Source: Thermococcus stetteri (lineage in GTDB: Archaea; Methanobacteriota_B; Thermococci; Thermococcales; Thermococcaceae). Taken from it: DNA of 64,000 nucleotides. The notes below the pieces were generated by a model. That model ran no database searches and had not been told where the DNA came from. It worked only from the letters and a program-made list of their open reading frames with translations. Numbering within the stretch: the stretch's first letter is position 1; each line of letters opens with the position of its first letter. Of the stretch, positions 45,433 to 60,866 are shown one piece after another. The stretch spans positions 744,001-808,000 of the forward strand of contig NZ_JAGGKB010000001.1 of assembly GCF_017873335.1 (NCBI RefSeq). The letters run 5' to 3'. A program made the translations under genes and the position numbers.

Positions 45433-46458
45433 ATGAGGGAAGACAAGATAATTGAAAAGCTCCAGAAGCTCGGCCTCACCAAGTACGAGAGCCTTGCTTA
45501 CATAACTCTCCTAAAGCTCGGGCCTAGCAAGGCAACCGACATAACGAAGGAGAGCGGGATTCCGCACACTAGGGTTTATGATGTCCTCAGCTCCCTTCAC
45601 AGGAAGGGCTTTGTTGATGTGATGCAGGGTACTCCAAGGCTGTATAAACCCGTAAACCCCGAAGTCGTGCTTGAAAGGATTAAAGAAGAGCTAATCGAGG
45701 ATATTGAAGCTCTCAAAAAGGCCTTCCTCGACCTCTACCGCGAGGCCCACGGTGAGGAACTCCCCGAGATATGGACGATACAGGGCTTTGACAACACCCT
45801 TGAGAGGGCTGAGCACGTTATAAGGACGGCAAAGCACGAGGTTCTTATAAACACCCCCTTCGAGTTCCTGAAGCTCCTCCAGGGTGAGATAAAGAACCGC
45901 AAGGACGTAATCTTCGTCATCATCAGCAACTTCGGAGACGAGATACCGAACTGGCTTAAGGGCGACAACATAATCCTCGCCAAGAGCGGTGGAGCGCCGT
46001 GGCTCATGGCGAGCTGGATAATCGGCGACATCGACTACGCGCTCTTCTTCGGCGCCCTACCCAAGGACAGGAGAAGGGAAAAGTTCTACTCCTTCTGGGC
46101 AAAGAGCCCCAGGATAATCCAGAACTACATGCACTGGTTCTACACGATCTACTTCGACAACAGCGAGGTCATAAAACCCCTCGCCTACGAGAGGCTCCAG
46201 AAGCCGGTTTCGCTGGTCAACATCAGGACCCTGATAATGGTTCTGAAGTTCGCGGGGCTTCCCAGGAAAGCTGAGATAGCCGGAAGGCTCATAGACACAA
46301 AGGAGCCCGTTACCCTCGATGGAGAGATAGTGGACTACGAATACACCCCGCTCACTGCAAACGTCACCTTCAGGTACAACGGTAAGGAGCTCAAGGTGGG
46401 CGGCATAGGGAGCTACTTCGAGGACGTCGAGGGGGAGAAGTTCATACTCCTTGAATGA
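45433..46458 (+). CDS. TrmB-family sugar-responsive transcription regulator
   Basis: A 341-aa regulator. The N-terminal winged helix-turn-helix is visible at residues 5-75 (LGLTKYESLAYITLLKLG; KATDITKESGIPHTRVYDVLSSL), followed by a coiled-coil dimer segment and a C-terminal TrmB sugar-binding domain with an all-beta end. Divergent placement from the mal-apu operon, whose promoter has a TGM-like site, makes it most likely the Tgr/TrmBL1 type global regulator of sugar uptake and glycolysis, or the local TrmB. These two cannot be told apart with certainty from sequence alone. Confidence 0.9.
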   Translation: MREDKIIEKLQKLGLTKYESLAYITLLKLGPSKATDITKESGIPHTRVYDVLSSLHRKGFVDVMQGTPRLYKPVNPEVVLERIKEELIEDIEALKKAFLDLYREAHGEELPEIWTIQGFDNTLERAEHVIRTAKHEVLINTPFEFLKLLQGEIKNRKDVIFVIISNFGDEIPNWLKGDNIILAKSGGAPWLMASWIIGDIDYALFFGALPKDRRREKFYSFWAKSPRIIQNYMHWFYTIYFDNSEVIKPLAYERLQKPVSLVNIRTLIMVLKFAGLPRKAEIAGRLIDTKEPVTLDGEIVDYEYTPLTANVTFRYNGKELKVGGIGSYFEDVEGEKFILLE

Positions 46459-49397: not shown

Positions 49398-52300
49398 TCA
49401 AATCGGAACTGCAACGGCCACCTGGGCCGTGCTGGCAACCGGCTGGAAGGCAGTCATAAACCTCAGGAAGGCGTGGCTGAAGGCCCAGTCAGGGTCGCTG
49501 GTTCCCCTGTGTACCGGGGAGACCTCTCCCGTTGGGCCGGGGTGATCCCTGTCAACGCTCCAGAAGGCTAGGGAGCGTATTCTGTGCTGTATCGCCCAGT
49601 CGACGAGCTTTTCGGCATCCTGGAGCGAGAAAACGCTCTTATCATCGTTGGTTCCTATCATCGGGGTCAGGCCAATCATGCCCCATATTTCGTCGTCGCT
49701 CTTGTTGGGATAAATCTGCTTGAGCTGTTTGAAAACGTGTTCGGCCACGCTTATGGCGTTGTCCGCGTTTGCTGGCGTCCAGTAGTAGTCCATCGTCATC
49801 GGGTTGACCCTGTCGACGATAACCCCCTTCTTTGCCATGGTCTCTATTATCCCGTATCCGCCCGCAAGACCTATTCCTGGGTCGCTGGGCAGTGTGAAGC
49901 TAAGTCTAACGTTCGGTCTTTCCCTCTGTACGATAAGGAGGGCATCCGCCAGTTTGTCGGCGTCCACACCAGACTCGATGTCAAAATCAAGGTAGGTGGC
50001 GTTGTAGGTGTCTATAACCTGAATGTACCACTGCGCGAGCTGTTCGGGGGTCTTTGCCTGCTGGCAGAGGTAGGGGCCAACTGCGCCTCCGAAGGCTATA
50101 ATAACGTCCCCTCCGGCTTCTCTGAGCTCCTTCACCTCATCAACGAAGGCATCCAGTGGAATGCTTCCAGCCCAGGCCGGCCCGTTGTAGACTGAACTGT
50201 ATAGGATAAAGGCGAGGGTGAAGTAAGGTGTCCCGGTGAGTTTGTAGTACTCAACGAGCGGCTTGTGGATACTGAGGCTCATGTCGATGTACGGAGCGAA
50301 GAAGTGCTCGGGAAGACCCGGGCCTGCTGGAACGTAGGGACCCGTCTCGTTTCCTGGGCTGGGGTTTGGATTGGTTTCGTTGCCCGGTGATGGGTTTGGA
50401 CTGGTCTGGTTTTCGGAAGGGGTTGTCTCGTTGCTTGGGTTGGGGGCAGTTTCTGGCCAGACGTCCCAGAGCTGGCCGTTCACGTAGAGGTACATTGACT
50501 CGACCGGCTTGCTCCCTGTGGCAATGAACCCGAAGGTTGCCGTTGGTCCTTTGTTCCAGCTTGGTGGAGTGAAGACGACGTACCCGTCCTCTTCGGCCTT
50601 GTTTGCACTCCAGAAGCTTGAGACTGTCGAACCGTCCTTCAACTTGACCTTAACGACCCAGTCGTAAGTGCCGCCAAGGTTTAAGGTCACATCGTACTCT
50701 GTGCTTCCCCAGTCTTGGATTTTGACGCTGAACGCATCCGGCTTGACCAGATCGCCGGTGGATGGAGTCGTCTGGTTGTTTGAGGGCGTGGTCTCGTTTC
50801 CTGGGCTGGGGTTTGGATTGGTTTCGTTGCCCGGTGATGGGTTTGGACTGGTCTGGTTTTCGGAAGGGGTTGTCTCGTTGCTTGGCGGTATTGGGGTTGG
50901 CTCTGGAACGGTTATGTTGCTCGGGATGTTCGAGCCTATGTAGTAGGTATCGGGAATCCACGCCGGTGGCTTCTCGCCGAGGTGCTGGAGAACCGTATCG
51001 AGGAGCGGGTGGCTGTTGGTTCCGGGCTTCCTGTCGGCGGTGATCTCCCAGATCATCACTCCGCCTAGTCCGTTCTTCAGCATGTAGTCGACCTTTATTC
51101 CTATCGCCTTGGGGTCGTCGAAGGTTATGAATATCTTCTTGCTTGGGGAGTAGAGCCACGCGACCTGTGCTATCGGGTCCCAGTGGTACTCGTATTCACT
51201 GCTCTGGTTCTTCTTGGCGACGTCCCAGTAGTCCATGACCCCGTAGGTTTCGTAAGCGGGCCCCCAGGTGCCATCAGGAGTGCCACTGAAGGGCTGGTAG
51301 AGGCCGCTGTTCTCGGGCGGGACGTTTGCAAAGCTCCTGCTGTAGAATGGGAGGCCGACGGTTATCTTGGTCCTGTCTGGGACGTGCTGGACGTACCATT
51401 GGACGGTGTAGTTGACGCAGAAGTGGTACTTGACGTTCTCGTCGGTGTAAGGTGCATTAGGGTCGCAGTAGAGCGGGGCGAGGTGGCCGGTTATTGTCTC
51501 CCAGGCGCCGTGGTAGTCGTAGGTCATGATGTTGATTGAGTCGAGGTACTTGCTTGCCTCGTTCCAGTCTATCCTGCCGGCCTTGACCGGGTCGGCTGGC
51601 GTTGCGGCTGTTAGGAGGTAGTCCTTGTGATCCTCCTTTTCAGCCTGATCTAGAGCTTCTCTTAACGTCTTTAGGAGGAGTACAAAGTTCTTACCGTCGT
51701 CGGGGCTCTCGTAGTTTCCTTCCTTGCCTCCGCCGCCGGGGTACTCCCAGTCGATATCAATTCCATCGAGGTCGTACTTCCTTATGATCTCTATGGCTGT
51801 CTCGGCGAAGCGCTGCCTCTTGACCGGGTCGGCAGCTACCACCGAGAAGTATTTGCTGAGGGTCCACCCGCCGACTGAGATTAGAACCTTAACCGCTGGA
51901 TACTTCCTCTTGTACTCCTTCATGGCCTCAAGGTTGAGCGGATCTGCGTAGGTGTCGAAGAAAGCCACCGTACCATCCTCCTTGAGGTCGAGGAAGGCGT
52001 AGTTGACGTGGGTCACCTTTTCCCAGGGGATATCGCTCACGTAGAACTTCCTCGCGTACCTGCCCCATGAAATATAGTAGACTATGACCCTGTACGGCTC
52101 CAGGGGGGTCGTTATGGCGAGAACGTTCGACGGACTTCCCCTGCTTCCATCGGCGAGAACTGGAACGACCCCGTAGTGGTAGGTGGTGTTGGCCTTCAGA
52201 TCCCACTGGTCGAGGTAGTTGGTGGTTGGGACAACATCTCCCACGAGCTCCCAGGAGTCATCGCTTCCGGGAACGCTCTGGGTCCAGTATTTAACGCGCC

Positions 52301-52794: not shown

Positions 52795-52804
52795 GATTAT
52801 AAAA
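52795..52804 (+). promoter_or_regulatory. TATA box of dac
   Basis: GATTATAAAAT lies about 35 nt before ATG 52837, giving a short leader with the ribosome binding site GAGGTG. Confidence 0.55.
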
Positions 52805-52836
52805 TAGGGCAACTCTATAATATCGAGGTGCATGAC

Positions 52837-55746: not shown

Positions 55747-55780
55747 GCTTTCACCTATATAAATTATAACTCCAATCTTT

Positions 55781-55789
55781 TTTATAATT
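55781..55789 (-). promoter_or_regulatory. TATA box of the GH1 gene
   Basis: The minus-strand sequence AAATTATAAAAAAG lies about 38 nt before the start codon. Confidence 0.5.
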
Positions 55790-55911: not shown

Positions 55912-55919
55912 TTTATATA
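55912..55919 (+). promoter_or_regulatory. TATA box of the second ABC importer
   Basis: GGTTTATATAG lies about 60 nt before the first duplicated ATG (55976) and about 113 nt before the true start (56029). Confidence 0.5.
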
Positions 55920-55932
55920 GATGGGGCTTAAA

Positions 55933-55985
55933 CCGTAAACTATAAAACTGACCAACCTTATAAGCGGTGGTGCCTATGAAGAAAG
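55933..55985. repeat. 53-bp tandem repeat, copy 1 (contains RBS and ATG)
   Basis: Exact copy of 55986-56038. The unit includes GGTGGTG, ATG and the first four codons of the binding-protein gene. Confidence 0.95.
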
Positions 55986-56032
55986 CCGTAAACTATAAAA
56001 CTGACCAACCTTATAAGCGGTGGTGCCTATGA
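55976..56032 (+). other. 18-codon upstream ORF created by the duplication
   Basis: Starting at the first ATG (behind GGTGGTG), the frame encodes 18 residues (MKKAVNYKTD...) and stops at TGA 56030-56032, which overlaps the real start ATG 56029. It could reduce or couple translation of the downstream gene. Confidence 0.6.
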
Positions 56033-56038
56033 AGAAAG
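55986..56038. repeat. 53-bp tandem repeat, copy 2 (contains the used start codon)
   Basis: Exact copy of 55933-55985; five further bases (CCGTA) begin a third unit. Confidence 0.95.
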
Positions 56039-57921
56039 CCGTAGCCATGGGCCTTATGGCCATTTTACTGGCCAGCCTCTTCGGGGCTGGATACGGTTTG
56101 GCGGCAGAAAGTCTGCCAAGGAATGAGACCCTCTACACTGCCAACAGCGCCCCTCCAACGAACGCCAACCCGTTCACGGGGGGCTCAGTGCTTGGAATAG
56201 ATGGTCTTGTTTTTGAGCCACTGTTCATGTTCAACTTCATGACCGGCGAGCTCAAACCGTGGCTTTCAGAAAGTGCCAAGTGGGTTGACGACGACACCTT
56301 TGAAGTCAAGCTCAGATCGGGCCTCAAGTGGCAGGACGGCAAGCCCCTGACCGCCGAAGACGTCAAGTTCTCCTATGAGTACTACGAAAAGATTGGCCTT
56401 AGGAACTGGGGCAACCTCGGACTCAAGGAGATAAAGGTCGTTGATGACAGTACGGTTCAGTTTATCTTCGAGGGAACCCCCAACTATCAGCTCTGGCAGC
56501 TTCAGATGTTCTTCGGCTGGGGACAGGGTGCACTCATAGTTCCGAAGCACATTTTTGAGAAAATCAACCCCGAGGACATACCAAAGATGACCTTCACCGG
56601 CGATGAGATGAAGTACCTCGTCGGTTCTGGAGCCTACAAGCTCAAGGAGATAGTGGGACAGGAGAAGGCCATCCTTGAGAGGAACGAGGACTGGTGGGGA
56701 GCAAAGGTCTTCGGAAAGCCCGGACCGAAGTACATCGTCCAGCTCTACGTCACCGACAACAACCAGGCCGCCAACATGTTCATCAAGGGCGACCTCGACG
56801 TCGGTACCTATTATATCGACATAGTCTCGGCCAAGCAGAAGAACCCCAAGCTCGCGAGCTGGCTCGACAAGTACCCCTATTTCCCGCCCGTTGCTCCCGT
56901 TCTGCTCTACTTCAACACCAAGCACGCCCCGCTCGACAATCCGAAAGTCAGAAGGGCAATAGCGATGGCAATCAACCCTTACCAGATCGTCAACCAGGGT
57001 CCTATAAGCGACCTTCCAAAGCAGGTTCCATTCGGTCAGGGTCTCCTAAACAAGTGGAGCGACAAGGTTGGTATTGACGGCCTCATCAGCCAGTACGGCT
57101 GGAAGTACGGTGATGTTGCCGGGGCAATAAAGCTCCTCGACGAGGCCGGAATCAAGGATACCGACGGCGACGGCATCAGGGAGTACAACGGCAAGCCGCT
57201 CAAGCTCAAATTCGTCACATGTGTCGGCTGTAACGACTGGCTCCAGGCCGGTGAGATCATAGCGAACCAGCTCAAGGCCGTTGGAATTGAGGTCGAGATA
57301 GAGAAAGGTGACTGGACCAACTTCTTTATGAAGAGCCTTCAGAACGGTGACTTCGACCTTGCCCTCCACTGGTCCGGAACCTTCCAGCCGAGTGCTTATG
57401 CTGTCTTCAACATGCTCATTTCAAAGGACGGTGGAGCCAACTACGGCAAGTATGAGAACCCGCAGGTTGACCAGATTTTAGAGGAGTTTGGAAAGACCGT
57501 TGACGAGAACAAAGAGGCCCAGTACATAAGGCAGCTCTGCCAGATATGGCTCCAAGACGTTCCAGCGGCTCCGGTTTACATGGCAACGCTCTTCTACGAG
57601 GCCAACACTGAGTACTGGACTAACTGGCCGAACGAGAAGAACCCATATGGTGTTCCAATTTTCTGGACGAACTACGGCACCTGGGGTACAGCCCTTGCGC
57701 TCCTTGGTGTCAAGCCCGCTAAAGCCCCTGCCTCCGAGACCACAACAACATCGACAACCACAACATCGTCCCCAGCCACAACCAGTTCAAGTGGATCATC
57801 GACATCCTCTTCATCCGAATCTCCGACTTCATCAACGAGCAGTGGCGGTGGAGGAATCTGTGGGCCTGCTGCAGTGGTTCTCCTCGCGGCGGTTCCCCTC
57901 CTGATGAGGAGACGCCGCTGA
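56029..57921 (+). CDS. Oligosaccharide/peptide-type ABC transporter substrate-binding protein, CGP-CTERM anchored
   Basis: A 630-aa family-5 solute-binding protein. A signal peptide (1-25, ending near GLAAES) is followed by a two-lobe domain (ETLYTANSAPPTNANPF; NPKVRRAIAMAINPYQIV). A Ser/Thr linker from about 565 and GGGGICGPAAVVLLAAVPLL plus MRRRR form a CGP-CTERM anchor. Placement between chiA-dac and glmD-glmA indicates that it binds chito-oligosaccharides, although the family was first known for peptides. The protein start is the second ATG of a duplicated leader. Confidence 0.9.
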   Translation: MKKAVAMGLMAILLASLFGAGYGLAAESLPRNETLYTANSAPPTNANPFTGGSVLGIDGLVFEPLFMFNFMTGELKPWLSESAKWVDDDTFEVKLRSGLKWQDGKPLTAEDVKFSYEYYEKIGLRNWGNLGLKEIKVVDDSTVQFIFEGTPNYQLWQLQMFFGWGQGALIVPKHIFEKINPEDIPKMTFTGDEMKYLVGSGAYKLKEIVGQEKAILERNEDWWGAKVFGKPGPKYIVQLYVTDNNQAANMFIKGDLDVGTYYIDIVSAKQKNPKLASWLDKYPYFPPVAPVLLYFNTKHAPLDNPKVRRAIAMAINPYQIVNQGPISDLPKQVPFGQGLLNKWSDKVGIDGLISQYGWKYGDVAGAIKLLDEAGIKDTDGDGIREYNGKPLKLKFVTCVGCNDWLQAGEIIANQLKAVGIEVEIEKGDWTNFFMKSLQNGDFDLALHWSGTFQPSAYAVFNMLISKDGGANYGKYENPQVDQILEEFGKTVDENKEAQYIRQLCQIWLQDVPAAPVYMATLFYEANTEYWTNWPNEKNPYGVPIFWTNYGTWGTALALLGVKPAKAPASETTTTSTTTTSSPATTSSSGSSTSSSSESPTSSTSSGGGGICGPAAVVLLAAVPLLMRRRR

Positions 57922-58950: not shown

Positions 58951-59895
58951 ATGCCGAGTAGAAGCAAACTGGACACGGTTAAGATAGCTTTCCGGAACAA
59001 CAAGTTCAGATTCGGATTCGGCCTGCTAATGTTCTTCATTATTTTCTCGTTGGTCGGAGGAATCTTCACGCCGTTCAGCGGCGACGGGCTGTACTACGAG
59101 CAAATTCCCAACACCACGGTTAAAATAGCGACCTACTCTCAGAAGACCCTTCCCCCAATGAGCGAAGAGACTCTGATCACGTACCTGGGCAGGGAGATTA
59201 AGGTTCGCCACATACTTGGTACCGATGCCTTCGGCAAGGACGTCTACGCCCAGCTGGTGCAGGGTCTCAGGACGAGCCTTTGGGTGGCCTTCTTGGCGGC
59301 CATCATAGGCACGATCCTTGGAATAACGATAGGCTTTGCTGCTGGCTACAGAGGGGGATGGGTCGACGAAGGACTGATGATGTTCGTGAACATCATGTTG
59401 GTAATCCCATCAATAATCCTCTTGATACTCGTGGCGGCTTACCTATCCGCGAGGAGCCCCGAAGTACAGGCTTTGATAATAGGAATAACGAACTGGCCGT
59501 GGGTCGCGAGGGCGGTTAGAGCGCAGGCCCTCTCACTGAAGAACAGGGAGTTCGTGGCGCTGGCCAAGATAGCGGGTATGAGGGACCTGGCCATAATCTT
59601 CGGGGAGATAATGCCCAACATGGTCTCCTACGTCTTCATGGCGGGCATACTCCAGTTCAGCGGAGCAATTTTGGCGAGTGCCACTCTCGACTTCATAGGT
59701 CTCGGCCCGACGACAACAGTCTCGCTGGGAACTATACTCCAGAAGGCTATAGCCTACAACGCCCTTCAGTTTGGAAGCTGGTGGTGGTTCATACCACCCG
59801 GACTGATTATAACCCTGATAATAACGGCATTGTTCTTCGTCAACCTCGGAATGGAGGAGGTTTTCAATCCGAGGCTTAGGAGGGGTGGTGAATGA
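58951..59895 (+). CDS. ABC transporter permease, DppC type
   Basis: A 314-aa permease. After helix 1 a moderate outside loop leads to ILGTDAFGKDVYAQLVQGLR, the standard DppC motif. Five further helices carry the coupling loop (FVALAKIAGMRDLAIIFGEIMP). ATG 58951 lies after GAGGGTTGAGA; an upstream TTG at 58945 is less likely. It overlaps the first ATPase gene by 4 nt. Confidence 0.9.
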   Translation: MPSRSKLDTVKIAFRNNKFRFGFGLLMFFIIFSLVGGIFTPFSGDGLYYEQIPNTTVKIATYSQKTLPPMSEETLITYLGREIKVRHILGTDAFGKDVYAQLVQGLRTSLWVAFLAAIIGTILGITIGFAAGYRGGWVDEGLMMFVNIMLVIPSIILLILVAAYLSARSPEVQALIIGITNWPWVARAVRAQALSLKNREFVALAKIAGMRDLAIIFGEIMPNMVSYVFMAGILQFSGAILASATLDFIGLGPTTTVSLGTILQKAIAYNALQFGSWWWFIPPGLIITLIITALFFVNLGMEEVFNPRLRRGGE

Positions 59896-60866
59896 AGAGA
59901 ATTCTCGATGTGAGAAACCTTAAAATCTACTACAAGACTCCGGTGGGTTATGTTAAGGCTGTGGATGGTGTGTCCTTTGACGTTAGGGAGGGGGAGGTTT
60001 TCGGAATAGCGGGGGAGAGTGGGTGTGGTAAATCCACCCTCGTTCACTCCCTCATTCTTCGCAAGCCTCCGATGACTCACATGGGGGGTGAAGCCGTCTT
60101 CAAGGGTAAAGACCTCATGAAACTCAGTAAGGAGGAGGAGCGCAGGATAAAGTACAATGAGCTTTCAATAATTCCCCAGTATGCTATGAACGCTTTGAAC
60201 CCGACTAAGAAAATCAAGGATATTGTTTGGGATTTGGCCAGGGAACACGAGGCTGAGGACAAAGAAGAAGTTGAGAAACTCCTCAGGAAAAGGCTTAGGA
60301 TGGTTAAACTCAGCGAGAAAGTCGCTGACATGTATCCAGTGGAGCTAAGTGGTGGGATGAGGCAGAGGGCAACGATGGTTGTTTCAACGCTATTGAACCC
60401 GGACTTGCTCATTGCTGACGAGATTACTTCAGCGCTTGATGTTACAACGCAGAGGGTTGTTCTCGAGCTCCTTCATTACTTCATGAAGGAGGGGATCGTT
60501 AAGTCCATAATCTTCGTGACTCATGATCTGGCTCTCCTTGACAAGATAGCGGATAGGGTTATGGTTCTCTACGCGGGTAAGGTGGCTGAGATTGGTCCGA
60601 CTGAGGAGGTCATTAATTCTCCAGCGCACCCGTACACTTCAATGCTCATCGAAGCCCTTCCAAAGATTGGCGTGCACTACAAGCAGACTAAGCTGAAGGG
60701 TATTCCCGGGTATCCTATAAGCCTTCTCAACCCGCCTGAAGGCTGTAGGTTTTACCCGCGGTGTCCTTACGCGATGGAGCACTGTCCGAGGGTTGAGCCG
60801 AGATTGGTTAGTGTGGGGGATGATCATTTGGTTGCTTGTCATCTTTACGGGGGTGAGGAGGAATGA
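59892..60866 (+). CDS. ABC transporter ATP-binding protein, DppD type
   Basis: A 324-aa ATPase. Walker A is GESGCGKST, the signature is LSGGMRQRA, Walker B is LLIADEIT and the H-loop is VTHD. The C-terminal cysteine cluster is CRFYPRCPYAMEHC. Codons here end mostly in T or G, in contrast to the permeases before it. Both ends overlap neighbours by 4 nt, so it is translated as part of the operon. Confidence 0.92.
   Translation: MKRILDVRNLKIYYKTPVGYVKAVDGVSFDVREGEVFGIAGESGCGKSTLVHSLILRKPPMTHMGGEAVFKGKDLMKLSKEEERRIKYNELSIIPQYAMNALNPTKKIKDIVWDLAREHEAEDKEEVEKLLRKRLRMVKLSEKVADMYPVELSGGMRQRATMVVSTLLNPDLLIADEITSALDVTTQRVVLELLHYFMKEGIVKSIIFVTHDLALLDKIADRVMVLYAGKVAEIGPTEEVINSPAHPYTSMLIEALPKIGVHYKQTKLKGIPGYPISLLNPPEGCRFYPRCPYAMEHCPRVEPRLVSVGDDHLVACHLYGGEEE

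Follow-up and report, generated by a model that had tools for sequence, protein, structure and literature searches.

An exact 53-bp tandem repeat places two SD-ATG units before the binding-protein gene of a chitin-utilisation operon in Thermococcus stetteri

Termination-reinitiation at 4-nt stop/start overlaps has been demonstrated in the archaeon Haloferax, and ATGA gene pairs coupled in this way, whose upstream frame contains an SD, are described from Haloferax and E. coli (PMC6728339). In bacteria, regulatory uORFs and leader peptides are short ORFs situated just upstream of the gene that they regulate. Tandem duplications formed by slippage or microhomology consist of head-to-tail exact copies with 2-5 bp shared at the joint. 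The T. stetteri locus described here resembles these systems in the features named.

The analyzed window is a 64,000-nucleotide stretch of a Thermococcus-type genome (2.03 Mb, draft assembly in 7 contigs). TRF gave a period of 53 bp with 2.1 copies and 100% match over positions 55933-56043, and direct string comparison agreed. The two copies are adjacent, direct and identical at 53/53 positions, and beyond copy 2 the match extends 5 bp (CCGTA) to 56043. The duplicated unit, TAAACTATAAAA...AAAGCC, contains an operator-like palindrome, TATA-like elements, an SD and a start codon, and two SD-ATG units (ATG1 at 55976 and ATG2 at 56029) consequently precede the binding-protein gene. This confirmed the original prediction of an exact duplication of leader, ribosome-binding site and start codon, with a second site and ATG ahead of the real one and an 18-codon frame whose TGA overlaps the real ATG as ATGA at 56029. 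The coordinates are collected in Table 1.

Table 1. Features of the duplicated leader and related sites (positions in the window).
Feature	Position	Strand	Evidence and remarks
Primary TATA box TTTATATA, preceded by BRE (AGAAAGG); unduplicated	55912..55919	+	Best leader BRE/TATA score, 14.56; conserved across the orthologous leaders that align
Left edge of copy 1, TAAACCGTAAAC, with 7 extra bases	55929..55940	+	Leader alignment; none of the aligned relatives has the extra bases
Repeat copy 1 (53 bp)	55933..55985	+	TRF, string comparison
Repeat copy 2 (53 bp), equivalent of the ancestral leader	55986..56038	+	TRF, string comparison; match to G057 leader
Operator-like palindrome, copy 1 (CTATAAAACTGACCAACCTTATAA)	55940..55963	+	Genus pattern search, symmetric PWM, relatives
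Operator-like palindrome, copy 2	55993..56016	+	Pattern search, PWM; lies 53 bp, or about 5 helical turns, downstream of the copy 1 palindrome
TATA-like element of copy 1; possible start near 55986, skipping the uORF	55956..55963	+	BRE/TATA score 11.72; 23-bp TATA-TSS median
SD of copy 1 (GGTGGTG region)	55965..55972	+	Anti-SD duplex energy -8.8 kcal/mol
18-codon uORF, MKKAVNYKTDQPYKRWCL, ATG1 at 55976, stop TGA at 56030-56032	55976..56032	+	String comparison
Solute-binding protein (SBP_bac_5), 630 aa, true start ATG2	56029..57921	+	Pfam PF00496, E=3e-73; orthologue starts align
Same palindrome at PIG-L deacetylase/chitinase promoter, outside the duplication	52797..52820	+	Symmetric PWM score 27.0 vs Markov-control maximum of 19.4
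Weaker palindrome at divergent GH1 promoter	55764..55787	-	Score 18.2, within control range when taken alone; corresponding place in G057, G012 and G018

The operon that starts from the duplicated leader encodes the binding protein, two permeases, two ATPases, a SIS-domain protein and a GLMA-type GH35 enzyme, whose gene extends past the window end. Upstream of it lie a divergent GH1 gene, a PIG-L deacetylase gene and a GH18 chitinase gene. The placement of the repeat before an uptake gene of the chitin pathway was thus supported by a chitin-utilisation operon together with its neighbors. Both the binding-protein ORF and the downstream operon are intact. The chitinase has 30-bp imperfect repeats of its own (50344-50412 and 50789-50859), which code for Pro/Asn/Thr-rich interdomain linkers (PSPGNETNP).

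All orthologous Thermococcus leaders with an alignable start codon, the comparison suggested together with the original prediction, were single-copy. The relatives compared include named Thermococcus MAGs; three hits (L019, L022 and L024), rearranged or more distant and with unaligned start codons, stood outside the judged set. Since the aligned orthologues carry one copy, the leader comparison identifies the duplication as derived and lineage-specific. G057 is the closest relative, at 91% over the stretch searched and 96% in protein; its leader, also in single copy, reads GGCTTAAACTATAAAACTGACC...CCTATG. The window has 60 extra bases relative to G057, namely the 53 of the duplication and a further 7 at copy 1's left margin (CTTAAA/CCGTAAAC). 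CCGTAAAC, the sequence of the joint, is present twice with differing left flanks. The 7 bases were overlooked at first. Since they are absent from the aligned relatives, the alignment points to at least two mutational events at the leader. A 7-bp insertion that made CCGTA, followed by duplication between two CCGTA sites, fits the sequence, as does amplification to three copies with the later loss of 46 bp by deletion. We infer that the duplication arose by short-homology slippage or template switching, which would have placed the copy joint between the codon 4-5 sequence (GCCGTA) and the leader, and that a second small event, before or after it, left the 7 extra bases.

In a census of 1,235,862 sampled bases (about 61% of the genome), the 53-bp repeat was the only exact tandem duplication with a period of 12-399 and at least 24 matched bases, and the same bases held no further repeat with a period of 30-299 and an identity of 90% or more. 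Exact tandem duplications of period 12-299 numbered zero in 800,000 bases from four complete relatives. Thus, the 53-bp duplication is unusual and is not due to chance.

The exact identity of the copies had been taken to mean that the event is recent or an assembly artefact. The stretch that was duplicated is unchanged between the window and G057 except for one base near its end (GCCGTA vs GCCATA), despite 20% divergence at four-fold sites of the binding-protein gene. Since the unit is equally identical in G057, copy identity is expected under constraint and is no proof of youth. On this comparison, constraint accounts for the identity as well as youth does, and dating by copy identity was rejected.

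The duplication could nevertheless be a passenger, a product of recent slippage with no selected effect, to be lost in the future by contraction. This reading, which concerns the effect of the repeat and is compatible with our main explanation of its anatomy, is a serious possibility, to which we give a little under an even chance. The near-absence of such repeats from these genomes is as expected of short-lived repeats, and under neutral drift of both identical copies the event would date to within the last 24% or so of the time since the G057 split. However, identity is uninformative where elements are constrained, and the 7 extra bp show that the locus was altered more than once.

Two kinds of transcriptional element within the repeat unit, a palindrome and TATA-like elements, had been overlooked in the original prediction. 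The unit holds a complete conserved palindrome, TTATAA-N12-TTATAA, with the pattern TTATAAAAYTGACN5TTATAA around the predicted transcription start, which it straddles. In a search allowing at most two mismatches, 25 of 61 genus genomes had the pattern, located in nearly every case at the binding-protein promoter, and the reversed-pattern control was near zero. In a profile search of the sampled part of the genome, the two leader copies ranked first, followed by the deacetylase/chitinase promoter. Elsewhere in Thermococcus, the palindrome was found at chitin-pathway promoters at L049:4796 and L049:7907. Across the window and relatives, the palindrome therefore recurs at co-functional promoters, clearly for the binding protein and the deacetylase/chitinase and weakly for GH1. 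These results suggest that it is probably a chitin-regulon operator, which the duplication has doubled. The proximity of the 53-bp period to five helical turns may be a coincidence.

A gene for a TrmB-type sugar regulator is present at 45433-46458, beside maltodextrin-type transport and GH57 genes. No other regulator was identified in the examined neighborhood, and this one is an unlikely candidate for the chitin palindrome. The palindrome predicts a dedicated chitin regulator; no description of one for Thermococcales was found in the literature searched.

The unduplicated primary TATA box scored in the top decile among 921 upstream regions, where percentiles are approximate because gene calls, SD energies and the BRE/TATA profile came from a simple script of our own run on sampled stretches. 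The distance from this box to the G of TGAC is 23 bp in most relatives and 21 bp in G012. Since the median TATA-to-TSS distance of T. kodakarensis transcripts is likewise 23 bp (PMC4247193), this G is by analogy the predicted transcription start. The 7 extra bases lengthen the distance to 30 bp in T. stetteri and may shift the start.

A different use of the repeat would be as a tandem promoter, with CCAACCTTATAAG of copy 1 as a new TATA box, so that most mRNA starts at about 55986, carries the copy 2 leader only and makes the uORF irrelevant. The score of the copy 1 element exceeds 10.81, the approximate 75th percentile of the maximum scores per leader, copy 2 begins about 23 bp past the element, and the spacing of the original promoter is disturbed by the insertion. 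However, the original TATA box is conserved and has the higher score, GACCAACC, upstream of TTATAA, is a poor BRE by eye, and in the single-copy relatives the same element is too near the ATG for promoter use. We consider this arrangement unlikely.

With respect to translation, both SDs have the same duplex energy, close to the genome sample median of -8.6 kcal/mol, and GGTGGTG lies within the last codons of the uORF. No stable structure of the leader was predicted at 85 °C, and the leader gave no Rfam match. An RNA switch between single and double leader was rejected, since most of the structure predicted at 37 °C is lost at 85 °C. Neither the uORF peptide nor its arrangement is conserved; both are absent from all aligned orthologous leaders. 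Of the possible leader duplications that take in SD to ATGA, 28% would yield an ATGA overlap, which makes the overlap a mechanical by-product that needs no selection. A 4-nt overlap with an upstream stop is possible for 73 of 938 called genes. Native ATGA overlaps occur in the same ABC operon at 59892-59895 and 60863-60866, the first preceded by a GGTGGTG SD like that of the duplicated leader.

Translation of the binding protein had been predicted to depend on re-initiation or on direct entry at the second SD. Both routes may operate, but the account was incomplete: since the unit also holds the palindrome and TATA-like elements, a short transcript without the uORF and a doubled operator are possible as well.

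We observed directly the structure of the repeat, its absence from the relatives that align and the conservation of its elements. That the locus is a genuine lineage-specific tandem duplication of the transcription-start, leader and start-codon segment of a chitooligosaccharide ABC operon, with the origin proposed above and the working that follows, is the explanation we favor, and we judge it reasonably probable. The upstream TATA box would still drive the main mRNA, containing both SD-ATG units. Ribosomes entering at SD1 would make the 18-residue peptide and halt at TGA with SD2 beneath them, and some of them would restart at the overlapping ATG2, by analogy with the same layout at the native junctions 59892 and 60863. 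SD2, which has ordinary strength and is largely free of structure at growth temperature, would likely also recruit ribosomes directly. The binding protein would thus still be made, with its output modestly changed. Furthermore, chitin-dependent control may become tighter through the second palindrome, and copy 1's TATA-like element may give rise to a minor, shorter mRNA lacking the uORF. The duplication probably alters gene control, with plausible effects on both transcription and translation.

A stronger version, in which the repeat is an adaptive cis-regulatory innovation with two operators on the same helical face, cooperative repression, and a uORF-coupled long and an uncoupled short mRNA, seems to us very doubtful; if true, it would provide reversible, copy-number-switchable control of the chitin-uptake operon. 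An assembly artefact in a truly single-copy genome is extremely improbable: the sequence is a draft and the single available assembly of the species, but the repeat ends share only CCGTA, so that an assembly loop in a k-mer or overlap graph is unlikely and the joint must have been in the reads, the 7 extra bases are likewise absent from relatives, and assemblers usually collapse 53-bp repeats rather than create them. With one assembly available for the species, the duplication may be a variant of a subpopulation or mixed population.

The locus offers a natural test of how an archaeal ribosome deals with two identical SD-ATG units joined by ATGA, and of the effect of a doubled operator, for both of which single-copy G057 is the control. 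The palindrome common to Thermococcus chitin-pathway promoters is perhaps the more useful result and the more lasting lead.

The duplication is real and rare, but belongs to an ordinary class of mutation. In comparison with simple slippage duplications, it also carries a 7-bp remnant on its left margin, which indicates more than one event. Unlike bacterial leader peptides, the T. stetteri uORF is unconserved in relatives, matches no Rfam family and is present in one genome. Compared with coupled ATGA pairs, its upstream frame is only 18 codons long, arose as a by-product of the duplication and is preceded by an SD of its own, the same as that of the downstream frame; the likeness is one of layout.
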